DNA from: Flavobacteriales bacterium
GTDB taxonomy: Bacteria > Bacteroidota > Bacteroidia > Flavobacteriales_D > Crocinitomicaceae
Assembly: GCA_947470515.1 (NCBI GenBank)
Contig: CANITF010000009.1
Span: 1-64,000 of the forward strand
Direction of reading: 5' to 3'
Length of the DNA stretch: 64,000 bases
In this document: one piece after another, positions 591 to 14,576 of the stretch
Numbering within the stretch: the first letter of the stretch is position 1
Layout: the number at the start of each line of letters is the position of its first letter
Notes under the pieces: model-generated
What the model was told of the DNA's origin: nothing
The model's input: only the letters and a program-made list of their open reading frames with translations
Databases searched by the model: none
Program-made: the position numbers and the translations under genes

Positions 591-1676
591 TTACTTAATC
601 TGAACACCTCTTGAAGAAAATAAACCTGCTGATTGATTTTTACTTTTGTCTAAACTGAAAGAAAAAGTACTGCCAATACCAAATGTACTTCTTACTGAAA
701 TTGTTTGTCCGTGAGACTCAATGATATGTTTTACAATGGCTAACCCAAGACCGGAACCACCTTCATTTCTATTTCTACTTTTTTCAACTCGATAAAATCG
801 TTCGAATAAACGAGGAATGTTTTGTTCTTCGATTCCTGGACCATCATCCGAAACTTCTATGGTGACAATATCATCCATTAAATATAAGCGGACGATGGTA
901 TTTCCACCTTCATTACCATATGAAATAGAATTACTTACTAAATTCATAATAACTTGAGAGATTTTGGCTTTATCTGCATTCACGAAAACACTGTTATAAT
1001 CTTTGGCAAAAGATAACTTGATATTTTTGTTTTTAGCCTTTATCTCTAATGAATCAAAAACATCCTGTACCAATTCATGAATGTCGAAAGGACGAATTTC
1101 TAATTTTAAGCGATCGACTTCTAATTTGGTTATCTGATCTAAATCCTCGATGATGTTAACCATTCGATCTGTTGCCTTAGAAGCCCGCTCTAAAAATAAG
1201 CGGTTTACATTTTCATCCTCTAAACCACCATCCAATAAGGTCAAAATATACCCTTGAATAGAAAAAATAGGAGTTTTTAGTTCATGAGCCAAATTACCTA
1301 GAAACTCACGTCGAAATGCTTCTTGTTCTTTTAATTTGGAAATTTCAACATTTCGTTCTTCAGTCCATTTTTGTGTTTCAATCTCTGCATTAGCAATGAC
1401 GTCATCGGTAATTTTAAATTTAATGTCGTTTTCCTTGGTAATTTTTCCTTTTCTAATTGAGCGATAGAGTAATTTTAAACGGTCGTTAATGAAGTACTTT
1501 ATAAAGAAATAGAATACTCCGAAAGAAATTAATCCTGTGGTAAAGGGTAACCCAATAAGTACCCAAAATGGAAAATTCATTACCTGTATATCGATAATGA
1601 ATGTAATGATTAAAGTGAGCACAAAGATTATTGCACTACCTCCAATAAGTAAATGAATTGGTTTTAAATTTTTCAC
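591..1676 (-). CDS. Two-component sensor histidine kinase (PhoR-like architecture)
   Basis: Inner-membrane sensor kinase that should phosphorylate the response regulator encoded just upstream. Two membrane segments lie within residues 9-62 with almost no periplasmic loop. A HisKA domain follows with His131 in the H-box (NLAHELKTP), then a HATPase domain with N-box (NLVSNSISYG), G1 (DDGPGIEE), F-box and G2 (GGSGLGLAIV). The start is GTG, 2 bases after the regulator's stop, so the two genes are translationally close. With so little periplasmic sequence it probably senses the membrane or a partner protein, as PhoR does through the Pst/PhoU complex (family knowledge). The stimulus is not visible; phosphate is an inference from context. 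Confidence 0.92.
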   Translation of the reverse strand: MKNLKPIHLLIGGSAIIFVLTLIITFIIDIQVMNFPFWVLIGLPFTTGLISFGVFYFFIKYFINDRLKLLYRSIRKGKITKENDIKFKITDDVIANAEIETQKWTEERNVEISKLKEQEAFRREFLGNLAHELKTPIFSIQGYILTLLDGGLEDENVNRLFLERASKATDRMVNIIEDLDQITKLEVDRLKLEIRPFDIHELVQDVFDSLEIKAKNKNIKLSFAKDYNSVFVNADKAKISQVIMNLVSNSISYGNEGGNTIVRLYLMDDIVTIEVSDDGPGIEEQNIPRLFERFYRVEKSRNRNEGGSGLGLAIVKHIIESHGQTISVRSTFGIGSTFSFSLDKSKNQSAGLFSSRGVQIK

Positions 1677-1678
1677 TT

Positions 1679-2365
1679 CTATTCGCTAAATGTATATCCG
1701 ACTCCTTTTATAGTGCGAATATAATCATCTCCTAGTTTTTCCCGCAATTTTCGAATGTGAACATCAATTGTTCTTTCACCAACGATTGTTTCGTTGCCCC
1801 AAACAATTGTCAATATTTGATCTCTTGTATAAACTTTTCCTGGTCTACTTGCTAGTAATTCGAGCAATTCAAATTCCTTTTTTGGTAAAAGTAAATTAGC
1901 ACCATTTGTTTTAACCATAAATTTTTCACGGTCAATTTGAATATGATTTGACTTTAATTCTGATTGTGTTTGAATAGGTTTCTCTAGTCTTCTTAACAGT
2001 GATTCTACCTTACTAATCAATAATCTTGGACGGATTGGTTTCGTGATATAATCATCCGCTCCTGCTTCAAATCCTGCAATTTGAGAATAATCTTCTGCTC
2101 TTGATGTTAAAAAAGCAATGATTGGTTGTGTAATGTTTAAATCTTTACGAATAATTTGACATGTCTCAATACCATCCATTACAGGCATCATAACATCTAA
2201 AAGAATAAGAGAAGGACTAACTTGCTGTGCCATTCTAACTCCTTCTTCACCATTCGATGCTGTGAAAATTTTGAATCCTTCTTTTTTCAATGAATAAGAT
2301 AAGAATTCTAAAATATCTGGTTCATCGTCAATTAATAATAAGGTATGTCCTTTTAGGTTTGTCAT
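1679..2365 (-). CDS. OmpR/PhoB-family response regulator (partner of the adjacent kinase)
   Basis: DNA-binding response regulator. The receiver domain has the acidic pair D13-D14, phospho-acceptor Asp57 (LLLDVMMP) and the usual T/K switch residues. The C-terminal winged helix covers about residues 130-228, with the recognition region ERTIDVHIRKLREKLG. Length 228 aa is typical. It forms an operon with the kinase (2-base gap). It is strikingly similar to the orphan regulator at 8362-9036, the two bracketing the T9SS and TonB genes, so they are probably paralogues with overlapping targets. The family assignment is firm; PhoB/PhoP-type specificity is inferred. Confidence 0.93.
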   Translation of the reverse strand: MTNLKGHTLLLIDDEPDILEFLSYSLKKEGFKIFTASNGEEGVRMAQQVSPSLILLDVMMPVMDGIETCQIIRKDLNITQPIIAFLTSRAEDYSQIAGFEAGADDYITKPIRPRLLISKVESLLRRLEKPIQTQSELKSNHIQIDREKFMVKTNGANLLLPKKEFELLELLASRPGKVYTRDQILTIVWGNETIVGERTIDVHIRKLREKLGDDYIRTIKGVGYTFSE

Positions 2366-2382
2366 ATAATTTCTTTAGCATT

Positions 2383-2413
2383 AAAAAGGGCTATCCTTTA
2401 TTAGATAGCCCTT
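2383..2413 (-). terminator. Rho-independent terminator of the T9SS protein gene
   Basis: A perfect 10-bp stem AAGGGCTATC/GATAGCCCTT (2386-2395 with 2404-2413) is followed, on the minus strand, by a T-run. It lies between the T9SS gene and the regulator-kinase pair and so separates their transcripts. Confidence 0.8.
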
Positions 2414-2432
2414 ACTTATGTATGTGTTTAAA

Positions 2433-5150
2433 TTATTTTTGAATAATCAATCTACGGTTAACGCTGTTGTTTTCTGTTTGAAGAACTACAGTGTATAATC
2501 CATTGTTTAATTCAATTGTGTTTAACTCTATTGAGTTATTTCCTTGCTCTAATTGTACATTTTGAACAGTAATGATTTGACCTAACTGGTTGATGATTGT
2601 TACTGTCGCTTCATTAGCTGATTGATTCTCAAATTCTAAAGTAGTATTAGCACTTGTTGGATTTGGATACAATTTAACATCAGCGAAGTTTTCTACTTCA
2701 TTCAATCCAACAGAGATTACAAGTGTATATGTAATCACATCAGTACAGTTTCCATTTGTAGCAGTTAATGTAACAGTATATGAACCGTTAGCAGCAAAGG
2801 CATGCGATGGAGATGTAGCTGAAGAATTAGATTGATCACCGAAATCCCAAGAGTAAGAAGTTGCATTTGTTGATGTGTTTGTAAATGTTACAACATTACC
2901 AGAAGTTGTGTTTGTAGCACTTGCAGTTGGCGTTTGTGTAAATGTTAAAATAACATCTGCAGATTGACCAACACCGTCACATAAATTTGCATTTGTTGTT
3001 GTTACATAGTACGTTCCATTAGCTGTTGCATCAACAGTTTGAGTCGTAGCACCATTACTCCACAAATAAGTATCAGAAGTAGAAGCTGTTAATGTAATCG
3101 TTTCGCCTGTACATGCTTGAGTTGCTGTAGAACTGATTGTAGGTACTGGTGTAGCACTTACATCTACAGTTGTAGCAGAAGAAGTTGCTGAACAACCATT
3201 TCCGTCTGTAAAAGTTACAGAGAAAACACCTGATGCAGTTACGTTAATCGCTGCAGTAGTTTCAGTAGATGACCAAGTATTACCGTTAGCAGCACTTGAA
3301 GTCAATGTTACAGAACCACCTGTACAGAATGAAGTTGGTCCACTAGCTGCAATAGTCGGTGCAGACGGCAAAGCATTTACAGTTACAACAGTTGCAGTTG
3401 AAGTTGCTTGACAACCATTTGCATCATTTACAGTTACAGTATAATTTCCATTTGATGTAGCAGTAATTCCTTGTGTTGTTTCTCCACCACCCCAAGTATT
3501 GTTAGATGCAGCACTAGAAGTTAATACAACAGAACCACCTTGACAGAAAGTTGTTGATCCTGTTGGAGTGATTGTTGGTGTAGTTGGCAAAGCATTTACA
3601 AGAACAACAATAGGAGCTGAAGTTGCAATACAACCAGCAGCATTTGTAGTTGTTACTGTATAAGAACCACTTGTTGAAACTGTAATACCTTGTGTTGTTG
3701 CTGTATTGCTCCAAGTGTTGTTAGATGCAGCACTAGAAGTTAAAACAACATTTCCTCCTTGACAGAAAGTAACAGGGCCTCCAGCAGTAGCTGAAACAGC
3801 TAAGTAAGAAATACCTGGTGTATCGTAGTCTGTAAATATAGGATTAAAGTTTGACCAACAAGCCGTCCAGTCATTTGATCCATCAAAAGCACCTTTGTAT
3901 GTTGTAGGTGTAAAAAATGAATTATTCAAGTTTGGATACGTAAAGTTTGCTCCTGCTAGTGCTGGAGAACCTGCTTGTAATAAAAAGTTAGGTGCAAAAT
4001 AATTTGTTGGTGCAACTGCCATCACTCCTTGAGGATTTGCAATAATTGAATTTGCACCTGCATTGAACCAAAGGTTCATGCCGAATGTAGATGGCGATAT
4101 TGCTGCAGAATCTAAAGGTAATGTGCAACCTGCAATGATATTATTTTTGAATTGCAAAGTACCAGATTGAGCATTATTTGCCGTGTTCGCATTTTCGATT
4201 TTCAAACCAACCGGAAACCCAACAAATACTGAATTATATGTACAAGTTGATGTACTTCTTCTTAAGTGTAATGCTCTTTTGAAATTAGGAGCGAAATCAG
4301 TACTAGTTGCTGTAGCTCTTGGGCCAAAAATACTTACGTTTGTAAAAATTGGCTTCGTTATTGGACCATTTGTTGTTCCTGTAGCATCATTATCTGATTC
4401 AAAACCATTTGAACCCGAAATATCTGCTACTGTTGAATCACTAACACCAACAGCAAACTGAATACGGCCTCCAAAACCATAATCTGTGTCAAACATATCA
4501 TCTACGGTCTTGTTTACAATTAAATGTTTGCAGTTCACTGTTCCACCAAACCATTCAAAAGCGTCGTCCCCACCATAACTAACTTGTACATAGTCAATAG
4601 TAGTTCCAGCTCCAACGCCACCCATGGTTAAACCATTTGTTTCATTATTAGGTTGAAATGCAATACCAGCAAATTCAATTCGAACATACTTTAATATACC
4701 TGAATTGTCATTAGGATCAGTTCCACCGTACAATCCTTTAGTTGGATCAATACCACCTTCACCCAATCTTTGTCCAGCTGGATCATTGATAGGTGCTTTG
4801 CCTAACATTAAAATTCCACCCCAGTCACCTGCAGCTCTACCCCCAATTCCTCCAGTATTTGGTTTATATGAAGTAAAAACAATTGGTTGTGTTTGTGTTC
4901 CTTCTGCTATTATTTTGGCACCACGAGTGATTACTAAAGCAGTTGCATTTCCTTTGATAATTGTTCCCGGCTCAATTGTCAGAGTAGCATTATTAGTAAC
5001 ATATACAAATCCTCCAGTTAAGGTGTAGATGTTGTTACTTGTCCATGTCGTGTTCGACACAATGTCGCCCGACACACTAACTTGTGCATTGATGCTGAAG
5101 ATGTTTACTAAAGCAAATGCAATAAATAGTAATTTTGTTTTCATTTTCAT
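2433..5150 (-). CDS. Secreted beta-helix / Ig-like / PKD protein with T9SS sorting domain
   Basis: Exported protein of 905 aa. A signal peptide spans residues 1-22 (ends NIFSINAQ). Residues about 24-430 look like the conserved Bacteroidota beta-helix family often mislabelled 'multidrug transporter', with repeats such as NATLTIEPGTIIKGN, WGGILMLGKAP and SYGGDDAFEWFGG. Four Ig-like repeats start near residues 461, 534, 608 and 678 (FCQGGSVVLTSSAA, ~73-aa period). A PKD domain lies near 770 (YSWDFGDQSN). A type A T9SS C-terminal domain begins near 820 (KLYPNPTS). It should be moved across the outer membrane by T9SS and kept at the surface or released. It lies directly downstream of a TonB receptor gene, suggesting a joint role in binding or uptake; the ligand is unknown. 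An ATG two codons inside (5144) is an equally possible start. Confidence 0.88.
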   Translation of the reverse strand: MKMKTKLLFIAFALVNIFSINAQVSVSGDIVSNTTWTSNNIYTLTGGFVYVTNNATLTIEPGTIIKGNATALVITRGAKIIAEGTQTQPIVFTSYKPNTGGIGGRAAGDWGGILMLGKAPINDPAGQRLGEGGIDPTKGLYGGTDPNDNSGILKYVRIEFAGIAFQPNNETNGLTMGGVGAGTTIDYVQVSYGGDDAFEWFGGTVNCKHLIVNKTVDDMFDTDYGFGGRIQFAVGVSDSTVADISGSNGFESDNDATGTTNGPITKPIFTNVSIFGPRATATSTDFAPNFKRALHLRRSTSTCTYNSVFVGFPVGLKIENANTANNAQSGTLQFKNNIIAGCTLPLDSAAISPSTFGMNLWFNAGANSIIANPQGVMAVAPTNYFAPNFLLQAGSPALAGANFTYPNLNNSFFTPTTYKGAFDGSNDWTACWSNFNPIFTDYDTPGISYLAVSATAGGPVTFCQGGNVVLTSSAASNNTWSNTATTQGITVSTSGSYTVTTTNAAGCIATSAPIVVLVNALPTTPTITPTGSTTFCQGGSVVLTSSAASNNTWGGGETTQGITATSNGNYTVTVNDANGCQATSTATVVTVNALPSAPTIAASGPTSFCTGGSVTLTSSAANGNTWSSTETTAAINVTASGVFSVTFTDGNGCSATSSATTVDVSATPVPTISSTATQACTGETITLTASTSDTYLWSNGATTQTVDATANGTYYVTTTNANLCDGVGQSADVILTFTQTPTASATNTTSGNVVTFTNTSTNATSYSWDFGDQSNSSATSPSHAFAANGSYTVTLTATNGNCTDVITYTLVISVGLNEVENFADVKLYPNPTSANTTLEFENQSANEATVTIINQLGQIITVQNVQLEQGNNSIELNTIELNNGLYTVVLQTENNSVNRRLIIQK

Positions 5151-5257
5151 TTTAAGTTTTTTTTCGCAGTATTTTTTGGGAAGCTGCGTTACCCATTTTT
5201 ATCGAAGCAAAAGTAGAGCGGATGTCTTCCATGAAGGTTAGCTAGGAATTATTCTTA

Positions 5258-5295
5258 GTTTAAGAAATGATTAATAAATAATACCGCAATGTTAA
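5258..5295 (-). promoter_or_regulatory. Phased TTAAC-like repeats upstream of the T9SS gene
   Basis: Minus-strand units TTAAC (from 5295), GTATT (from 5284), TTAAT (from 5274) and TTAAAC (from 5263) lie at offsets 1, 12, 22 and 33. This is the same phasing as the better array upstream of the TonB receptor. The units are degenerate, so binding by the module's regulators is an inference. Confidence 0.4.
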
Positions 5296-5334
5296 CATGT
5301 CTAGAAATTGGGAATTGAGGATTTATTATTTGGG

Positions 5335-5366
5335 ATTAAAAAAGCCCCGAATTTTATTTCGAGGCT
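5335..5366 (-). terminator. Rho-independent terminator of the TonB receptor gene
   Basis: A 9-bp stem (5343-5351 with 5358-5366, one mismatch) is followed on the minus strand by a run of six T. It sits 38 bases past the receptor's stop codon. Confidence 0.75.
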
Positions 5367-5403
5367 AGATTTAAATGAAAGAAGGAGATGTATTTTTCTT
5401 AAT

Positions 5404-8226
5404 TTAGAAATTATAGGCGAAAGAAAGTGTTATATTTCTACCATATTTAATTCCGTTAATTTCATTGTCTTCAGTTTCTTCATATTTCTTTGAACGGTTA
5501 AAATCTTGATAGAAAACAGCCCTTTGATTAAAAATATCGCTAACGTTTAATTTCAATTCACCTTTCTTAAAGATTCTTTTAGTTACTTGAAAATCCAAAA
5601 TATTTCTTGGGTTTTCATAAATATCTTGGTAACCATTTGTTCCAACAAAGGCAATTCTTCGTCCTATTTTATTATACATCAAACTCACTCCAAATCCTAA
5701 AGAATCATTTTGATACATGAATCCTGCATTGATTAGGTAAGGAGATTGACCTTGCATTGGTCTTAATTTTTCTTCTTCAGTAACTGCTTGGGGAACATTT
5801 GATAAATCAACAACCGATTTTACTAAGGTTAAGTTTGTAAAGAATGTAAAATTGTCTAATGCTTCTGTATTAAACAGAGAATCAATGAAACTCAACTTAG
5901 TTCTTAATTCAATCTCCATTCCATAGTCTACTGCACTTGCAACATTTCTATATGTATAAGTTCTAGACCCTGAACCACCAAAGAATACAGTGTTTTCAAT
6001 TGGGTTTGTGAAATCCTTGTAAAAGAAGGAAGTAGAAATGATTTGTCCATTACCTGGGAAATACTCAAAACGTAAATCTAAATTCGTGATATTGGAAGAA
6101 ATTAAAGTATCGTTACCAACAACTGCTGATGATGTGTTGAAATCATAGAATGAAAACGGCGCTAATTCTCTAAAATCTGGTCGAGCAACTGTTCTGGATG
6201 CAGCGCCACGTATATTGATTTTTTTAGTTGGTGAATACGTTAAATTTATAGATGGTAAATAACTTAAAGTAGTGTTATCAATCGTCACAGTATCGCCTCC
6301 GTAGGTCAACGAGTTTAATTTTTGATTGAAATTTTCAACTCTTAATCCATAAACTGCTCTGATTTTTGCACCAAACTTTTGATCTGTCATCAAATATCCA
6401 GCATGTAAATCTGTCGATGCAGTGTAGGAATCAGAGGGGTTTGTCGATTCGCCAAATTTGAAACCATTAGCACTTATATTGTCATTTGAAAAAATAGAAT
6501 CTTGAGGTTGATATAAAAGATTGTAGTCAAAAAGTGAAGTTGCGCTAACGGTGTATCCAAATACACGGGCGTCGAATGTTCTGGCTTTAATAGATCCAGC
6601 ATAACCAACTTTGATTAAACTCTGCTGACTTAACATCTTATAAGGAATAGAGATTTCTGCCATCCCCGCGTATAAATCTTCGTTCAAATCAGAGAAAAAG
6701 CGTCCTGCAAAATCAGGAGAAGGAGCACCAAAAGGTACATATGCAGAATAAACTGAATCAGCATTAGTTCCTTGTGGTGTTCTATTCTTGTAATACAACA
6801 TTCTTTTCAAATTTGGAACGGCAGATTGTGTTTTACTGTAATTTAATCCCCATTTAAGTTTGATTTTAGACTTTTCTAATAAATGATCTCCTGAAAGTTG
6901 TGAAGATAGCATTTTATTAGATGTATATTGCTGAGTAGTTGCTGAAACAATTTGATCTGCATCAATGTTTTCCCCTGTTCTATGGATTACCTGATCAGTC
7001 GAGTTATTACTGAACATATTTTTAAAAGCGATTTTGTTGTTTTCCCCAATTTTATAAGCAAAGTTCAACATCGCTCCCCAAGTAACATTTTCTCTGTAGG
7101 TAGCGTCGTTGTAATCGAAAAGTCTTGAACCATCTTCGTTAAAATCTCTTCGTGTTACATCTAAAAACCTTCTGTTATAGTTGTAAGTGAGACCACCTAT
7201 AAAACCAAATTCATTCTTTTTTAGTTTTAAGTTTTTAGCAAAACCAACCTGATAACTTTGACCTAAAGGTGATGATTTCTTTGTGTCAATTCCCCAGTCA
7301 TTTGTAAAAATCTTACTGTTTTCAAGAACTGTGTTTGGATCTGAAAGTAATAGTTTAAATTTTGAAGTACTCAACATACCTGAAGGTAATGCTCGATCCG
7401 ATGCACCTAATCCTATCCAATCTTTGCTGCTTCCTTGGTAGGTTGAATATTCCTTGAAAGTTGATTGAGTATTGAAATTAGTTCCAGCAGTTACGGAAAT
7501 AAAATCTTTTTCAGGAACGTCTTTGGTATTAATTTGAATAACACCTCCTGCAAAATCACCAGGTAAATCTGGACTTGCCGTTTTAAAAATCAACATATTA
7601 TCAAGCATTACAGAAGGAAAAATGTCAAAAGAAAATGCTTTTCTATCTGCCTCTGTTGATGGTAATGGTAATCCATTTATCATGGCTGTGTTATATCGGT
7701 CATTCAAACCACGAATAATTACAAATTTATTATCCTGTATACTAGCACCACTTACTCTCTTTAAAACATCACTTGCAGCTCTGTCTGGAGATCGTCTTAT
7801 GTTTTCTGCAGTTATTCCATCAACCATACCTGCACTGTTTCGTTGAAGAATAATCAAGTTTTCATTTGATTCTTTGTCAATTTTAACACGAATCGTCACT
7901 AAACCAATTTCCTTAACAACAGCTTCCATCGATACAACAAGTTCTGTCGTTTCTGCATTTTTAACGATAACATCTGTTATAATTTTAGTGTTATAGTTAT
8001 TGTATGAAAAAGACAATGAGTATGTTCCTGCTTTAATATCATCAAATACAAAATGACCATCTAAATCACTTAACGCTTTTGTCTCAGATCCTTCAATGGA
8101 AATTTTAATTCCTGGAATTGACTCTCCAGAAATAGCGTCTGTTACTTTTCCCTTGATTATTCCTTGCGTGAATCCTATGGAAGTTAATAATAATGATAAA
8201 AGTAAACCAGCGAATTTTGTATACAT
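5404..8226 (-). CDS. TonB-dependent outer-membrane receptor with CarboxypepD-reg-like domain
   Basis: Outer-membrane active importer. I prefer the ATG at 8226 over an upstream in-frame start because MYTKFAGLLLSLLLTSIGF then forms a clean signal peptide. A carboxypeptidase-regulatory-like beta-sandwich follows (about residues 22-100, IIKGKVTDAISGESIPGI). Then come a TonB plug (SPDRAASDVLKRVSGASI, FVIIRGLNDRYNTAMING) and a long barrel ending in FAYNF, a typical C-terminal beta signal. There is no SusD partner; the neighbour is the T9SS beta-helix protein, so this is not a classical Sus pair. The substrate is not evident. The paired sensor kinase and PhoB-like regulators suggest phosphate or a phosphorylated compound, but only by inference. 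Confidence 0.9.
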   Translation of the reverse strand: MYTKFAGLLLSLLLTSIGFTQGIIKGKVTDAISGESIPGIKISIEGSETKALSDLDGHFVFDDIKAGTYSLSFSYNNYNTKIITDVIVKNAETTELVVSMEAVVKEIGLVTIRVKIDKESNENLIILQRNSAGMVDGITAENIRRSPDRAASDVLKRVSGASIQDNKFVIIRGLNDRYNTAMINGLPLPSTEADRKAFSFDIFPSVMLDNMLIFKTASPDLPGDFAGGVIQINTKDVPEKDFISVTAGTNFNTQSTFKEYSTYQGSSKDWIGLGASDRALPSGMLSTSKFKLLLSDPNTVLENSKIFTNDWGIDTKKSSPLGQSYQVGFAKNLKLKKNEFGFIGGLTYNYNRRFLDVTRRDFNEDGSRLFDYNDATYRENVTWGAMLNFAYKIGENNKIAFKNMFSNNSTDQVIHRTGENIDADQIVSATTQQYTSNKMLSSQLSGDHLLEKSKIKLKWGLNYSKTQSAVPNLKRMLYYKNRTPQGTNADSVYSAYVPFGAPSPDFAGRFFSDLNEDLYAGMAEISIPYKMLSQQSLIKVGYAGSIKARTFDARVFGYTVSATSLFDYNLLYQPQDSIFSNDNISANGFKFGESTNPSDSYTASTDLHAGYLMTDQKFGAKIRAVYGLRVENFNQKLNSLTYGGDTVTIDNTTLSYLPSINLTYSPTKKINIRGAASRTVARPDFRELAPFSFYDFNTSSAVVGNDTLISSNITNLDLRFEYFPGNGQIISTSFFYKDFTNPIENTVFFGGSGSRTYTYRNVASAVDYGMEIELRTKLSFIDSLFNTEALDNFTFFTNLTLVKSVVDLSNVPQAVTEEEKLRPMQGQSPYLINAGFMYQNDSLGFGVSLMYNKIGRRIAFVGTNGYQDIYENPRNILDFQVTKRIFKKGELKLNVSDIFNQRAVFYQDFNRSKKYEETEDNEINGIKYGRNITLSFAYNF

Positions 8227-8288
8227 GTGTCCTTTGTTTTTTTCGACACAAAGAAACGTTGACACAGTTATTCTAGAATTATTGAAAC

Positions 8289-8325
8289 GTTACTAGATTG
8301 TTAATTCAAGGTAACGTTTAGTTAA
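8289..8325 (-). promoter_or_regulatory. Phased TTAAC direct-repeat array upstream of the TonB receptor
   Basis: On the minus strand TTAAC (from 8325), TTACC (from 8314), TTAAC (from 8304) and GTAAC (from 8293) are spaced 11, 10 and 11 bases, about one helical turn each, 63-100 bases upstream of the start codon. Tandem half-sites with 11-bp phasing are characteristic of PhoB/PhoP-type OmpR-family operators. The operator role is inferred; the repeats themselves are seen. Confidence 0.55.
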
Positions 8326-8361
8326 TAATGAAGATAAAATAATTTAACATGAGGTTGAGTA

Positions 8362-9036
8362 CTAATTTTGAACTTCTACAAATTTATACCCAATTCCTTT
8401 AACTGTTTTGATATAATGCACACCAATTTTTTCGCGTAATTTTCTTACATGAACATCTATTGTTCGATCACCGACTACGATATCTGAACCCCAAACTTTA
8501 TCTAGGATAGTATCACGTTCAAATACGTAATCTGGTTTTGACGCAAGCAATGCCAATAATTCAAATTCTTTTCGCGGTAAATGGATAACAGCGCCATTTT
8601 TTTCAACTACGTATTTTTCACGATTAATAACAAGATCTTTGGCATGTCCAGATGTTAATGAGATCATACCTTTTCTGCGCAAAAGAGCATTAATTCTACT
8701 AACTAATACTTTTGGTTTTACAGGCTTAGCAACATAATCATCTGCACCGGCATCTAATCCAGCAATTTGGCTATAATCCTCATTTCGTGCTGTAAGAAAA
8801 CAAATTAATGTTTTTTGAAATCCATCTGTTCTTCTGATTGCTTCACAAACTTCGATACCATCCATTCCAGGCATCATAACATCAAGAATTATCAAATCAG
8901 GTTTGTTATTAACCATTAATGCTAATCCTTTTTCACCATTTTCAGCCGAATAGACGTCATAACCCTCCTTCTTGAGATTGTAGCACAGCAATTCTCTAAT
9001 GTCTTCTTCGTCGTCTATAACTAATATTGTTACCAT
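8362..9036 (-). CDS. Orphan OmpR/PhoB-family response regulator
   Basis: 224-aa DNA-binding response regulator. The receiver domain has D8/D9 and phospho-acceptor Asp52 (IILDVMMPGMDG). The winged helix carries DRTIDVHVRKLREKIG and ends KTVKGIGYKF. It closely resembles the regulator at 1679-2365 over both domains, including the unusual ITxK/VAKP region after DDY. No kinase lies next to it, so it is an orphan that either shares the kinase at 591-1676 or uses one elsewhere. It is the first gene of the minus-strand module and precedes the TonB receptor by 135 bases. Confidence 0.92.
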   Translation of the reverse strand: MVTILVIDDEEDIRELLCYNLKKEGYDVYSAENGEKGLALMVNNKPDLIILDVMMPGMDGIEVCEAIRRTDGFQKTLICFLTARNEDYSQIAGLDAGADDYVAKPVKPKVLVSRINALLRRKGMISLTSGHAKDLVINREKYVVEKNGAVIHLPRKEFELLALLASKPDYVFERDTILDKVWGSDIVVGDRTIDVHVRKLREKIGVHYIKTVKGIGYKFVEVQN

Positions 9037-9268
9037 CGTTGTGTGAAAATAAGTTAAGTTTTGCTTTTATGCTTATAAATATAGGTAGAATATTGGAATC
9101 TTAAAAGATTTGAATTTATGGTATTCTTAATTGTGTTTTTTTCAAACTATAATAAAACCAGCGATTTAGGCCATTTAACACAAAATTAATTGTACTAAAT
9201 GATCCTATTTTATATCTTAATTATAAATTTTTTATTTATCTATTTTAAAAAGATCTTCTAAAAATGTG

Positions 9269-9298
9269 TTGAACAAAGCTAAAAAATACTTAGCTTTG
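9269..9298 (+). promoter_or_regulatory. Bacteroidota-type promoter in front of the candidate small RNA
   Basis: A -33 TTG (9269-9271) is followed after 19 bases by TAGCTTTG (9291-9298), matching the Bacteroidota -7 consensus TAnnTTTG with canonical spacing. Initiation is expected near 9303-9306. The same bases also form a perfect 10-bp hairpin (9273-9282 with 9290-9299), which may be fortuitous or regulatory. Confidence 0.55.
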
Positions 9299-9302
9299 TG
9301 CT

Positions 9303-9372
9303 AGTAGTAGTAGGTTAGGTTGATTAGTATAGCAAGAGCTTTGGACGCCCGTCCAAGGCTCTTGTTTCTTTT
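9303..9372 (+). ncRNA. Candidate small RNA (~65-70 nt) ending in a strong terminator hairpin
   Basis: The 497-base gap 9037-9533 has no convincing gene. Its middle holds the promoter at 9269-9298 and a 15-bp hairpin (9333-9347 with 9350-9364, one G-U pair, 2-base spacer so about 13 bp effective with a small loop) followed by TTTCTTTTT. Between them runs a short leader rich in AGTAGTAGTAGG. Promoter and terminator face the same way and neither neighbouring gene uses them, so an independent small transcript is the simplest reading. It is not recognisable as 6S, SRP RNA or tmRNA. Nothing else is recognised in the gap. Confidence 0.5.
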
Positions 9373-9533
9373 TACACAAGTTCAACATAAGTAGTTTACG
9401 ATTTTTTATTGAAATGCTTCAATAGATAGTGCAATAAAAAAGAGCTCTGTGCAACACATTTTTTAACAAATCGCACTAATTTTCAAAAAAGTTTTAACTG
9501 AGAAATTTTTATATTTACAGTATATTCGACCCC

Positions 9534-10223
9534 ATGAAAATTAAAATACTTTTAGTTGAAGATGATACAAGTTTAGGCTTTATTATTTCAGATCAGTTAA
9601 AATCGGACGGTTACAGCGTTACGCTCTGCACAGATGGCGCAGAAGGGTTTAAACGGTTTAATGAAGAAAGTTTTCATCTCTGTATTTTTGATGTAATGAT
9701 GCCGAAAAAAGATGGTTTCAGTCTTGCTCGAGATATACGTAAAATAAATTCTGAAATTCCTATTCTGTTTTTAACAGCAAAATCAATGACTGAAGATAAA
9801 GTCGAAGGGTTTAAAGCTGGTGGAGATGATTATTTAACCAAGCCATTTAGTATTGAGGAATTGCAAGTTCGACTTTCTGCTCTATTGAAAAGGGTCAACA
9901 TTATTGTTGAGACTCCAGAAGAAACAATCATTCAATTAGGCGAATATGCTTTCGATACAATCAATTTTAAATTGGTTCATCCTAATTTCGAGAAAACATT
10001 AACTAAAAAGGAAGCTCAAATTTTAAAAATTCTTTGCCGGTTGAAAAATCAAGTTGTACCAAGAGATATCGTTTTGAATGCCGTTTGGGGTCAAGATGAT
10101 TATTTTGTGGGTCGAAGCTTGGACGTTTTTATCACCAAATTGAGGAAATATTTCAAAGAGGATGATTCGATTCATATTTCAAACGTTCACGGTATCGGGT
10201 TCAAATTAGAAATTGTAAAATAG
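9534..10223 (+). CDS. OmpR-family response regulator
   Basis: 229-aa response regulator with D10-D11, phospho-acceptor Asp53 (CIFDVMMPKKDG), K after LT (DDYLTKPF) and a C-terminal winged helix (RSLDVFITKLRKYF, ending GIGFKLEI). It belongs to a different subgroup from the two module regulators: the recognition helix and the DDYLTKPFSIEELQVRL linker region differ. No kinase is adjacent. tsaB starts 1 base after its stop, so they are co-transcribed, an arrangement without an obvious functional reason. Confidence 0.92.
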   Translation: MKIKILLVEDDTSLGFIISDQLKSDGYSVTLCTDGAEGFKRFNEESFHLCIFDVMMPKKDGFSLARDIRKINSEIPILFLTAKSMTEDKVEGFKAGGDDYLTKPFSIEELQVRLSALLKRVNIIVETPEETIIQLGEYAFDTINFKLVHPNFEKTLTKKEAQILKILCRLKNQVVPRDIVLNAVWGQDDYFVGRSLDVFITKLRKYFKEDDSIHISNVHGIGFKLEIVK

Positions 10224-10224
10224 G

Positions 10225-10893
10225 ATGATTTACATTCTTCATCTTGAAACATCTACAAAAGTTTGTTCTGTAGCACTCTCGTGTGATGGAAGACAACTAG
10301 CAATCAAAGAAGATTTGAGCAATGAATATTCTCATGCGGAAAATTTAACAAGCTATATTCAGGATGTTTTAAATCAAAGTAAAATTTCTTTGAAAGAATT
10401 AAGTGCGGTTTCTGTTGCTTCTGGACCTGGTTCTTATACTGGTTTAAGAATTGGCGTTTCAACTGCTAAAGGTCTGTGCTATGCATTAGAAATCCCATTA
10501 ATTGCTGTAGATTCTTTAATTTCATTAGCTACTCAAGCGAAAGAAAAACACCAAGACATCAACTTATGCGCGCTAATCGATGCACGAAGAATGGAGGAGT
10601 TTAATGGGTTTTATAATTCAAATCTAGAATCCTTAAAACCAATTTCCGCAGATATTATTATAAAAGATAGTTACAAAGAATTTGAACCATTCGTTTATTT
10701 TGGCGATGGAGCAAACAAACTTGAGGAAATTTGGAAGGATAGAAACTGCACTATTGATTCGTCAATTTATTCATCGGCAACAGGACAAATTCCTTTGGCT
10801 TATGAAAAATTCAACAAGAAACAATTTGAAGATGTTGCTTATTTCGAACCATTTTATCTGAAAGATTTTATTGGCTTGAAAAAAAATAATTAA
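10225..10893 (+). CDS. tsaB: tRNA threonylcarbamoyladenosine biosynthesis protein TsaB
   Basis: Cytoplasmic partner of TsaD and TsaE in making t6A at position 37 of ANN-decoding tRNAs. TsaB is the inactive ASKHA/M22-family paralogue that scaffolds TsaD. The N-terminal LHLETSTKVCSVALS and the hallmark VASGPGSYTGLRIGVSTAKG (about residues 65-84) are visible. Length 222 aa is normal. It is tightly coupled to the upstream response regulator (1-base gap) and converges with the DUF2490 gene 5 bases downstream. Confidence 0.93.
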   Translation: MIYILHLETSTKVCSVALSCDGRQLAIKEDLSNEYSHAENLTSYIQDVLNQSKISLKELSAVSVASGPGSYTGLRIGVSTAKGLCYALEIPLIAVDSLISLATQAKEKHQDINLCALIDARRMEEFNGFYNSNLESLKPISADIIIKDSYKEFEPFVYFGDGANKLEEIWKDRNCTIDSSIYSSATGQIPLAYEKFNKKQFEDVAYFEPFYLKDFIGLKKNN

Positions 10894-10897
10894 TCGA

Positions 10898-11614
10898 TTA
10901 TTTTTTGTTTTTCCGGAACGTGTGCTCGTAAGATAAATTCAGTATTAAATTGGTATTGTTCGTTGTTTGATAATCGCGCAGTAATAATCCAATCGTAAAA
11001 GTATTTGAATTATTAATTTCTAAATCAGTTCCAATAGAATAACGCATTTCATTCATTAATCCCTCAGTTACAAATTCATCTCCTGACAAAAAGTAATATT
11101 GATTGCTGCGATAAAATGATTCAGCACTTAAAAAAGGTTTAATAATTTTACTTTTAAATTGCGGTCTTAATGTTAATTTGTTTCTCCAATAAAGCTGTTC
11201 TCGTTTAAATTTAAAATTTTCATATTGAATTTTACTTGTAATTTGAATTCCAAGATATTTATCAATTTTTAGCCATTTAGAAGGTTCTATTTGAATTCCA
11301 AATGAAATTCGCTGTGAAGTCATTTGTCTTTTTCCATCCAAGAGTGCATAATCATTGGTTTGCCAAGAATTACGGTATAACAAACCAAATTTTATTGATT
11401 GAGTCAAGGCAAATTTTGACTCCAAGGTGACAAGTGATTTTGAATAACTTCTTTCCGTTAAATTCCACCTACCTTGTAATTCAGCACTGATAGATAGTTT
11501 TTTTATTAAGTAAAACTTAGCAGCTATAGAAGATCGATTGTAAAAGGAATTATTTTGAGAAAATGAATACCCAACAACAAAAAGTAAGAAGAAAATTGGC
11601 AGAAGTAGTTTCAT
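10898..11614 (-). CDS. DUF2490-family outer-membrane beta-barrel protein
   Basis: 238-aa protein with a signal peptide (MKLLLPIFFLLFVVGYSFSQ). The remainder alternates hydrophobic and polar residues with many aromatics (FGLLYRNSWQTNDY, IGLLLRDYQTTN), as expected of a small outer-membrane barrel of the DUF2490 type. It is the last gene of a three-gene operon with a lipoprotein and a CotH-like protein; its start overlaps the upstream stop by one base. Function unknown; it may anchor or export something for the CotH partner (inference). Confidence 0.75.
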   Translation of the reverse strand: MKLLLPIFFLLFVVGYSFSQNNSFYNRSSIAAKFYLIKKLSISAELQGRWNLTERSYSKSLVTLESKFALTQSIKFGLLYRNSWQTNDYALLDGKRQMTSQRISFGIQIEPSKWLKIDKYLGIQITSKIQYENFKFKREQLYWRNKLTLRPQFKSKIIKPFLSAESFYRSNQYYFLSGDEFVTEGLMNEMRYSIGTDLEINNSNTFTIGLLLRDYQTTNNTNLILNLSYEHTFRKNKK

Positions 11615-12375
11615 TATTGTACGATTGAAATCACTCCAATTTCAGTAACACTTGCTTTTTCGGTAATTTCAATTTCCTTATAAACTGGAATTTTTTCACC
11701 TGAAATGGCATCTTTCGTTAAAGCGTAAACTTTATATTTTCCAATTTGTAATCCTTCAAAAGAAAAATAACCATCTGCTCCAGTGCGTGCAATATCATTA
11801 AAAATTGTGCCGTCACCGTAAATTAAATATACGCGTTCTTCAGTAATTGCCATTTCAGTGCCATTAACATCCGGTTTTCCTTGATGAGTAACATCAACAT
11901 TGAAATTTGTTGTACCATTATCTGCATCTGTAATTTCAGTATGACTTGTACTAACCAATGTTAATATATCATTGATTTGAGATATTGTAAAATCACCATT
12001 TAAAGAAGCTTCAATTGCTGTTAAAGTTGCATTCGCAATTTCTAGGTTTGAAGCGCTATAATTGTAATTAACTTGAATGCCGACTCTTCCTTGTAATTGA
12101 GGGTCACCATTACTAACCCATGTTGGATTATTATACCAGACATAATATAAAGAACCACCTGCAGGACCATTAAATAAAAAATAATCACCGTGCTCAATAT
12201 CAAGACCTTGTTTTATAGTAATGTCAATTGTTTCAGCATTTCCAGTTGAATTATTCACACCAACAACGGTTCCTCTAATAGCTGATGTACCTCCAGGTCC
12301 AGCAACTTTTTTACAACTTGAAAATGCTCCAATCAATAGGATAGATAGAATACTTGCTTTTAAATATGAGTTCAT
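11614..12375 (-). CDS. Hypothetical lipoprotein with CarboxypepD-reg-like C-terminal domain
   Basis: 253 aa. The signal peptide ends in a lipobox (AFSSC) with lipidation expected at Cys21. The C-terminal ~80 residues (ARTGADGYFSFEGLQIGKYK) look like a carboxypeptidase-regulatory-like beta-sandwich. The middle part is of unknown fold. It overlaps CotH upstream by ATGA and DUF2490 downstream by one base, so the three products are probably made together and meet at the cell envelope. No catalytic residues are seen. Confidence 0.7.
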   Translation of the reverse strand: MNSYLKASILSILLIGAFSSCKKVAGPGGTSAIRGTVVGVNNSTGNAETIDITIKQGLDIEHGDYFLFNGPAGGSLYYVWYNNPTWVSNGDPQLQGRVGIQVNYNYSASNLEIANATLTAIEASLNGDFTISQINDILTLVSTSHTEITDADNGTTNFNVDVTHQGKPDVNGTEMAITEERVYLIYGDGTIFNDIARTGADGYFSFEGLQIGKYKVYALTKDAISGEKIPVYKEIEITEKASVTEIGVISIVQ

Positions 12376-14576
12376 TTTATTGTAATTTTAATTGTTTGAT
12401 AAAATTCATTATTCTGAAGAATTGTCACGAAATACATTCCTTCACTGAAATTTGAAACATCAATTGTTGTTTCGTCGAAGTCTTTAAATTCAAAGGTTTG
12501 AATCTTTTTACCGTGTGTTGAAATTATATTAATTGCAACATTTTTCAAGTGTTGGTTTGTTTTAATGGTAAGTTTTCCTTCTGTTGGATTAGGAAATGCA
12601 ATAACCTGATTTGTGTTAGTTATTTCTTTAATTCCTAAATCATTACAAATTCCAAACATGTTATTATCCATCCAGATTAGTCGACCTGCAATCCATTCTT
12701 TCATGTAATCAATTTCTTCTTGGTAGGTATTTCCAATGAAGTTATTCGGCCATACATATGTTCCTAAAATTGGCCAGCGGTTATAATTTCGAGCAGCCGG
12801 GTCAGCTAAAACTGCTGCCATACTATCAATGTAAGAAAGTATATAATCGGTATTCAAACTAGTTTGACGCAATTCTAACCACCTGCATTTTAATGCATGA
12901 GAATAGGTAGAATCTTCCAGTAATCTTCCCCACCAGAAAGGATTTTGCCAGCCACCGCCGCAAACGGAATTAAAATTAATTTCCCAACCTGTTGTATCAG
13001 AACCTTGACAATAATTTGAATTTCCAAATGCTAAATTAAAATCCCAAAGTGGTCCGGCCACAAGTTCTCCTCCTTCACTTACTCTATTTTTATGTAAATA
13101 AGTTGAAATTCGATAACCATCAACATTTTTAGATAATTCATTAACCAACATAAAATCGATAAAAGATGCTTCATCAATGAAGGGCTTATAACCTAAAACT
13201 GGGTCAGTGAAATTTGGTCCAGCTAGAGCATTTTCCCAATTCGTAACTAAATCTTCAATATACTGTAATTGAGAAGGATGCATGGCAATTGCATCTGGTT
13301 CATGCAATTGAAAACCAATGTTACTTGAACCAGGAGCCGCGCTCGTATAAGGAGAATTCCATGAAATTACTCCTCCTGCAGTTGTTTTATCAATTTTAAC
13401 AATGTAACCGCCTGTTAATTCATTATTGAGCGTGTCAGAATAATTTAATGGATCAATATTTACGCGTCCTGGATTCACTTTTATACGTTCCATGAAAACA
13501 TAAACACCTATATAATCTCCGTTCAGAATGACTTCACACATTTGCGTGCGAGGTGCCCAACTTCCCATTTCGTTGCCGATTTTATAAGTAAGCACATTTC
13601 TGATCATTGCTTTATCGGTGTATGGCGCGTATAATATCCAATCATTATCTGCTGGCCAATCAAAAATTGATGCGTTATAATTTATGTTGGTATCTGGCCC
13701 TCTTGTTTCTAAACCATATGATTTCATTGGAAAAGTGTTTGAAGAAGAACCTCTTCGTTCAATCGCTATTTGACCATAAAATTCATTTGTCGCATCTGTT
13801 ATATTATTAATTACTCCAGGACCATTGTATATGATTCCCATGAACCCATCAATTTTTGGTTCATCTGGAATTGTAATTCCATTTGTATTCAAAATAACAA
13901 TTGGCAAGTTTGAGCTAGATAATTCAACCGGGGGAATAAACCATAAAGGAGTTGGGCCATAATTGGATGAATTATCGGATATCCCAAAAGACAAAAAAGC
14001 TCTTGAAGTGAAATCAGAAGAAGTTGAAGTTTGATTATGTGTTTCTACACAAAGAACATTTGGGCCATTTACAAGCGCACTTTGCACTTGCGCTTGGTTA
14101 AAGACAAATTGGTCTGGATAACCACCAGAATATAAAACTGCTTCGTGCGAGATTGATGCTAACTGATTATAATTTGGCTGTCCAGTGCCTGCAATTCCAT
14201 TACGAGCAATTTCAACACCATTTAGATAAGCAACAAATCCATCATCATAATCCATGTTAAATATTGCCTTTGTAATCAAAGAAAGATCTACAACATTAAA
14301 TGTTATGCGCTGATAAACTGAGATTGTGCTTGTTGGTAAAGGAGTATTGTCATCACTGTCACCGAAGCCAAATCCTCCAGGCCCAACGCTCCACAAAGAA
14401 GCATCATATGAAGGTGAAATCCAGCTGGCTTGTGTTGTTGCCGTGGGAATGGAATAGCTCCAATTACTATTGTCATTCACAACAGTTTCCCAATGGTCAG
14501 ATTGTGCATTTAGGTTTAATGCAAAAAACAATAATAAAGAAAAAAGAGTGGTTTTTTGTATAATTTTCTTCAACAT
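12372..14576 (-). CDS. Secreted CotH-kinase-family protein with T9SS sorting domain
   Basis: 734 aa: signal peptide (residues 1-25, ending NLNAQ), an N-terminal region with jelly-roll-like sequence, a CotH domain over about residues 220-600, and a T9SS type A C-terminal domain from about 660 (AFPNPTEGKLTIKT). CotH signatures are NGDYIGVYVFMERIK, GGYIVKIDK and LWDFNLAFGN. CotH family members are protein kinases of spore coats or virulence effectors (family knowledge). Here an exported, surface-located version is predicted; its substrate and its energy source outside the cell are unclear. First gene of an overlapping operon with a lipoprotein and DUF2490. Confidence 0.88.
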   Translation of the reverse strand: MLKKIIQKTTLFSLLLFFALNLNAQSDHWETVVNDNSNWSYSIPTATTQASWISPSYDASLWSVGPGGFGFGDSDDNTPLPTSTISVYQRITFNVVDLSLITKAIFNMDYDDGFVAYLNGVEIARNGIAGTGQPNYNQLASISHEAVLYSGGYPDQFVFNQAQVQSALVNGPNVLCVETHNQTSTSSDFTSRAFLSFGISDNSSNYGPTPLWFIPPVELSSSNLPIVILNTNGITIPDEPKIDGFMGIIYNGPGVINNITDATNEFYGQIAIERRGSSSNTFPMKSYGLETRGPDTNINYNASIFDWPADNDWILYAPYTDKAMIRNVLTYKIGNEMGSWAPRTQMCEVILNGDYIGVYVFMERIKVNPGRVNIDPLNYSDTLNNELTGGYIVKIDKTTAGGVISWNSPYTSAAPGSSNIGFQLHEPDAIAMHPSQLQYIEDLVTNWENALAGPNFTDPVLGYKPFIDEASFIDFMLVNELSKNVDGYRISTYLHKNRVSEGGELVAGPLWDFNLAFGNSNYCQGSDTTGWEINFNSVCGGGWQNPFWWGRLLEDSTYSHALKCRWLELRQTSLNTDYILSYIDSMAAVLADPAARNYNRWPILGTYVWPNNFIGNTYQEEIDYMKEWIAGRLIWMDNNMFGICNDLGIKEITNTNQVIAFPNPTEGKLTIKTNQHLKNVAINIISTHGKKIQTFEFKDFDETTIDVSNFSEGMYFVTILQNNEFYQTIKITIK

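Follow-up and report, generated by a model that had tools for sequence, protein, structure and literature searches.

Organization of the locus

The sequence studied is the start of one contig in a 2.99-Mb draft genome of a Crocinitomicaceae bacterium, and the window is the whole stretch of 64,000 nucleotides that was analysed. Near its beginning lie the five genes of the original prediction, all on the minus strand and in the order claimed: an orphan PhoB paralogue (RR1, 8362..9036), a TonB-dependent receptor (TBDT, 5404..8226) with CarboxypepD_reg, plug and barrel domains, a secreted, T9SS-tailed beta-helix protein (2433..5150) that resembles the ElpS and FII receptor partners, a second PhoB-like response regulator (RR2, 1679..2365), and the PhoR-like histidine kinase that RR2 adjoins (HK, 591..1676). 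These assignments draw on Pfam and NCBIfam matches (HisKA and HATPase_c for the kinase), together with hydropathy for the kinase, an AlphaFold model and PDB folds for the beta-helix protein, the well-supported RR2 clade, and, for RR1, its identity to RR2, its place in the tree and its intact receiver and DNA-binding residues. The two regulators are indeed look-alikes in both domains, with 54% identity over 221 residues covering both, and the expected absence of SusD was borne out among the ORFs and domains of the locus.

For the receptor, the ATG at 8226 is the most likely start codon, because a clean signal peptide follows from it and because the longer ORF, which begins with a GTG at 8265, runs through the TBDT promoter (8246..8355, minus strand). 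Rather than one operon, the five genes are predicted to form several transcription units, because hairpins intervene and because the TBDT gene and the beta-helix gene are each served by a separate operator array. A terminator-like hairpin lies 3' of the TBDT gene (5343..5366, minus strand), and a hairpin with a T-run separates RR2 from the beta-helix gene (2386..2413, minus strand), the latter being kept as a hairpin in relatives with its sequence changed. Past RR1, on the plus strand, are a candidate small RNA and the gene for an RprY-like response regulator (9534..10223), which often adjoins RR1 and the small RNA in the family. Further along, on the minus strand, positions 10898-14576 encode a T9SS-tailed protein with a CotH-kinase domain, a 253-aa protein with no Pfam match and a DUF2490 protein, a group that adjoins the locus in many members of the genus.

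Promoters and operator arrays

The phased repeats that had been remarked on in the original prediction are TTAAC-like pentamers with an 11-bp period, and at both the TBDT and the beta-helix genes their register relative to the -7 box TTTG is fixed. Their positions were taken from aligned upstream regions and are counted from the end of the -7 TTTG. At the TBDT promoter (-7 box TTTCTTTG) units lie at approximately -99, -77, -66, -56 and -45, with weaker ones at -34 and -23, and at the beta-helix gene promoter (5205..5316, minus strand; -7 box TACTTTTG) they lie at -88, -67, -56 and -34, the two promoters being offset from each other by whole 11-bp units. Shuffling gave p values for the phasing of 0.0012 (TBDT) and 0.011 (beta-helix gene) for the studied sequence alone, and of <0.001 at both promoters across genus homologues, which are not independent of one another. 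PhoB/OmpR direct repeats share this 11-bp geometry, and the array takes the place of the -33 element.

The same genome holds a further array of this type between phosphate transport genes. The pit and DUF47 genes are divergent from pstSCAB-phoU, and the 196-bp gap separating them contains a four-unit array, GTTAACTTAATGTTAAGCTTATTAAACCTATATTAAC (p 0.002). Most relatives in the genus have two half-sites 11 bp apart upstream of DUF47-pit; the relatives vary in this respect, and the corresponding site in the studied genome is degenerate. Apart from the TBDT promoter, a genome-wide search with the spaced operator pattern found no more sites than the reversed control did, and a genome-wide profile (R1) was significant at only the two promoters used to build it. 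Because any further sites were indistinguishable from background in these searches, no regulon is claimed or mapped. The 11-bp TTAAC array is proposed as the putative Pho operator of this branch.

The receptor and its beta-helix partner

The suggestion that the beta-helix protein acts as the receptor's partner is strengthened by adjacency and by co-divergence. Of 80 named loci, nearly all from Bacteroidota, 79 have the two genes side by side, and the 80th is cut by a contig end. TBDT and beta-helix distances correlate with r 0.97, and the partial correlation is 0.95 after removal of RprY, TsaB, RR1 and RR2 (Mantel p 0.0005), indicating that receptor and partner diverge as one unit. Within the genus the receptors fall into two groups that are 43% identical to one another, as do the beta-helix domains (52% identical between groups), with the flanking regulators ~75-80% identical between those same two groups.

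In the partner, residues ~22-350 form the beta-helix, followed by Ig-like repeats, a PKD domain and a T9SS type A sorting tail that scores above both applicable cut-offs (TIGR04183, 46.8 bits against 23; PF18962, 47.9 against 27). The AlphaFold model of the protein is confident (pLDDT 86, pTM 0.89), its likeness to pectate lyase Pel9A and further beta-helices in the PDB is one of fold only, and no Pfam family covers the beta-helix domain. The only NCBIfam match of the TBDT was to TIGR01782 (TonB-Xanth-Caul), at 226.2 bits against a cut-off of 310, and no solved structure was matched by sequence for the receptor-partner pair.

One feature of the beta-helix domains concerns the motif YKGAF..DWT..W, which one group of the genus carries at the C-terminus of the beta-helix and the other at its N-terminus, as seen in positions 3801-5150 of the present locus and in L053, L054 and L058-L061, all from one syntenic place. 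The opposite ends give the appearance of a circular permutation of the beta-helix.

Most other families have a lipoprotein as partner, and the T9SS-tailed form occurs here and in a small number of families besides. All 13 receptors whose partner has the T9SS tail fall into a single clade, apart from 83 other receptors, in a sampling that was centred on lipoprotein forms and may miss T9SS pairs elsewhere. In one further locus (L066 of genome G172, 7231-13133) a beta-helix lipoprotein stands on each side of the receptor, giving two candidate partners for one receptor.

Conservation of the neighbourhood

The order RR1-TBDT-beta-helix-RR2-HK, with rprY-tsaB divergent past RR1, is found genus-wide in genomes with a contig long enough, and a search for the same neighbourhood in other Bacteroidota confirmed that conservation reaches past the genus, above all for the receptor-partner pair. 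A phoB gene adjoins the pair in 19 of the 80 named loci, including those of Arenibacter, Salegentibacter, Psychroflexus, Maribacter and Schleiferiaceae, and such linkage also occurs in several further families; several families of the order have phoR-phoB and the pair transcribed divergently. This linkage across families makes it likely that the ancestral unit was phoBR adjoining the pair.

The position of RR1 is more variable. In sister genera it lies apart from the receptor, in company with rprY-tsaB or with the DUF47-pit phosphate transporter. RR1 and RR2 also flank the pair in loci L143, L145 and L146, and in L217 two PhoB copies lie around it, with their assignment to RR1 or RR2 unclear in the tree. 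The idea of a self-contained device did not survive this comparison: the stable unit is the TBDT with its beta-helix partner, often adjoining one phoBR, and RR1 is often elsewhere.

Two PhoB-like regulators and one PhoR

PhoB-like proteins were counted from tables for 150 genomes of the order and for the studied genome. Exactly two are present in 55 of the 60 family genomes, and almost all genomes outside the family have one. PhoR, by comparison, is single in the studied genome and in 57 of 60 family genomes, and is never double in the family. RR1 and RR2 each have a clade of their own (100/97 and 100/99, respectively), in a tree that does not settle where RR1 roots among other families' single PhoBs. 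Both have the OmpR-type architecture of a receiver and Trans_reg_C, with the receiver active site and its phosphorylation residues intact, and both have the recognition helix RTIDVH(I/V)RKLREK; 12 residues separate the two groups.

PhoB is the best NCBIfam model for both regulators, at scores below the equivalog cut-off for TIGR02154 (204.5 bits for RR2 and 211.3 for RR1, against 296.2) and below that for NF053854 (197.3 and 203.6, against 270). The best models for HK, PnpS (255.6 against 400) and PhoR (231.1 against 334.2), are likewise below their cut-offs. Because the equivalog cut-offs are not reached, the proteins are named PhoB-like and PhoR-like. By hydropathy HK has two N-terminal membrane helices with a nearly absent periplasmic loop, and Pfam gave no match for a PAS domain in it. 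One near-complete family genome (G167, locus L083) has kept RR1 and the small RNA, with RR2 and PhoR undetected, so that RR1 may answer to another kinase. Within the literature library searched, PhoB duplication in Crocinitomicaceae found no report, and its family-wide duplication beside one PhoR looks new.

A candidate small RNA

The candidate small RNA of ~70 nt is on the plus strand (9303..9373), divergent from RR1 in the interval that separates it from rprY, behind a promoter (9269..9298), TTG-N19-TAGCTTTG, of the housekeeping type, for which the consensus is TAnnTTTG (PMC9723704). The promoter is followed by AGTAGTAGTAGGTTAGGTTGATTAGT and a strong terminator hairpin, the near-invariant 5' portion of the RNA being AGTAGTAGTAGGTTAGGTTGATTAG, and the fold has a z score of -5.1. 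In 27 distinct sequences the 5' part has 20 invariant columns, and the stem shows two-sided changes at 16 of 16 pairs, with 98.6% of cells paired. When two mismatches are allowed, the core is found in 38 of the 60 family genomes and in one genome outside the family, where the hit has two mismatches. For the form that stays close to the core (one mismatch or none, with a second related element excluded), coordinates place 28 of 37 copies within ~0.5 kb of RR1 and the rest with rprY or apart; because some copies are away from RR1, it is not strictly a Pho element. Rfam gave no match for the candidate, and none anywhere in the 64-kb window. It is presented as a new, family-restricted candidate. 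Predictions of duplex energy against the gene starts of the 64-kb window and against pst/pit yielded no target that was convincing or Pho-specific; a short AACCTAA match at the start codon of RR2 was rejected, as it is lost in relatives.

The second related, RNA-like element, AGTTAGTTTTCATAAGTAGTAGTAGTTTAGGTT with a terminator, lies upstream of lepA in the studied genome (L118:3478, minus strand; G000:C12:47958-47977). It also occurs in L125, L126, L127, L128, L133 and L134, in some cases as two or three tandem copies, and the sequence complementary to its central part, CTTATGAAAACTAAC, looks like the surroundings of a start codon.

A probable phosphate-starvation cassette

The locus is very probably a PhoB-controlled phosphate-starvation cassette of the ElpS or PUSIV kind. 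Phosphate limitation, the leading guess of the original prediction, is well backed by the phased TTAAC arrays at both genes, by the matching array between pst and pit, by the linkage of phoBR to the pair, and by the literature on F. johnsoniae and Caulobacter; the presence of RR1 beside DUF47-pit in sister genera, and the common recognition helix and intact receivers of RR1 and RR2, also count in its favor. The genus-wide gene order and the adjacency and co-divergence of the pair speak for the cassette as well. Synteny and operator sites support the putative control of the phosphate regulon by RR1 and RR2. Against the phosphate reading stand the genome-wide operator searches with no excess over control, the degenerate pit site, the PhoB and PhoR scores below cut-off, the reportedly constitutive cc0171 of Caulobacter, the unchanged phosphatase activity of that species on deletion of elpS, and genome G167.

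Under low phosphate, PhoR (591-1676) would phosphorylate RR2 (PhoB2) and, by cross-phosphorylation, the orphan RR1 (PhoB1). One or both regulators would then bind the 11-bp TTAAC arrays just upstream of the -7 boxes and switch on the receptor and beta-helix genes, which predicts their induction by low phosphate in this species. The receptor would be exported to the outer membrane, and the beta-helix protein would exit through the T9SS, to be fixed on or released from the surface. Together, partner and receptor may form a complex that captures a phosphorus-containing substrate for TonB-driven import.

An improbable alternative is that the pair handles a cargo other than phosphorus, such as a glycan or a metal complex, with the PhoB-like proteins reporting a general envelope or nutrient signal. 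TBDTs of such build usually serve glycans or siderophores, the partner is closest in fold to pectate lyase and other beta-helices that act on glycans, and the PhoB and PhoR models are below cut-off; however, the same operator is present between pst and pit, phoBR is linked to the pair in several families, and the corresponding F. johnsoniae genes are induced under low phosphate only (PMC8115612).

Two further alternatives concern RR1, and each is unlikely, if less so than a non-phosphorus cargo. RR1 might stand outside the Pho circuit as an rprY-linked regulator that adjoins the receptor by an accident of the genus, which would fit its occurrence with rprY-tsaB and the small RNA in many genera where the receptor is elsewhere, and its presence without PhoR in G167. 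Yet RR1 is a PhoB paralogue that shares its recognition helix with RR2, it sits beside DUF47-pit in other genera, and flanking of the pair by both regulators (L143, L145, L146), or by two PhoB copies (L217), recurs. It could also be that RR1 and RR2 are opposed, one activating and the other repressing or timing the same operators, as products of a duplicated and divided PhoB; two well-supported clades kept family-wide, 12 group-specific residues and a single PhoR would accord with such a division, but receiver and DNA-binding residues are kept in both.

If the phosphate-starvation reading is extended to the family as a whole, the Pho system of Crocinitomicaceae might comprise two PhoB proteins, one PhoR, a shared 11-bp operator, a constitutively promoted family small RNA that lies divergent from the orphan PhoB and adds a layer of regulation, and a separate lineage of pairs with a T9SS partner, a composite that is offered tentatively and with some doubt. 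Bacteroidota depend on TonB-dependent receptors for phosphorus, and the most abundant surface proteins of low phosphate (ElpS and FI-FIII) have no known function; the beta-helix family described here has no Pfam entry. A family-wide design of two PhoB and one PhoR offers an uncomplicated setting in which to ask how response regulators share out a regulon after duplication, and the small RNA candidate is a concrete new target beside the locus.

Comparison with known systems

In E. coli PhoR-PhoB, an OmpR-type regulator recognizes Pho boxes, which are direct repeats spaced 11 bp that immediately precede the -10/-7 region. The present system resembles it in its OmpR-type regulators, its 11-bp repeats and the presence of pst-phoU, and differs in the TTAAC core, the longer arrays, the Bacteroidota -7 box, the two PhoB proteins and a kinase with no Pfam PAS match. 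Systems for SusCD polysaccharide utilization and PusCD phosphate utilization likewise couple a TBDT to a surface partner and are controlled by substrate, but here SusD is absent and the partner is a beta-helix, which places the pair outside SusCD.

Closer parallels are found in Caulobacter and F. johnsoniae, and the link to their proteins draws on architecture, neighbourhood and published work, the homologues used being from other Flavobacteriaceae with the same neighbors. Caulobacter ElpS (CC0170) is induced by low phosphate, is surface-located and adjoins the TBDT CC0171; it has no phosphatase activity itself, deletion of elpS left phosphatase activity unchanged, and cc0171 was reported to be constitutive (PMC2996285). 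The likeness lies in a low-phosphate surface protein adjoining a TBDT, the two co-occurring in many genomes. Unlike the present partner, ElpS is a lipoprotein with T2SS-dependent release, and its gene is beside T2SS genes rather than phoBR.

The PhoBR operon of F. johnsoniae (PUSIV, Fjoh_0543-0546) encodes PhoR, PhoB, a TBDT and FII; Fjoh_0545 (the TBDT) and Fjoh_0546 (FII) are strongly induced under low phosphate only, and the paralogues FI and FIII are also induced by phosphate depletion (PMC8115612). FII has a pectin-lyase fold, and its family resembles ElpS (PMC8115612). Like PUSIV, the present locus has phoBR next to the genes for a TBDT and a surface protein with a beta-helix (pectin-lyase) fold, and no SusD. 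It differs in that F. johnsoniae has one PhoB rather than two, and in that FII is a lipoprotein, whereas the partner here is T9SS-tailed and has Ig/PKD repeats. Judged by neighbourhood and architecture, then, the receptor-partner pair is of a known kind, PUSIV/ElpS-type and not SusCD; what look new are the doubled PhoB, the lineage with T9SS partners, the proposed operator and the small RNA candidate.
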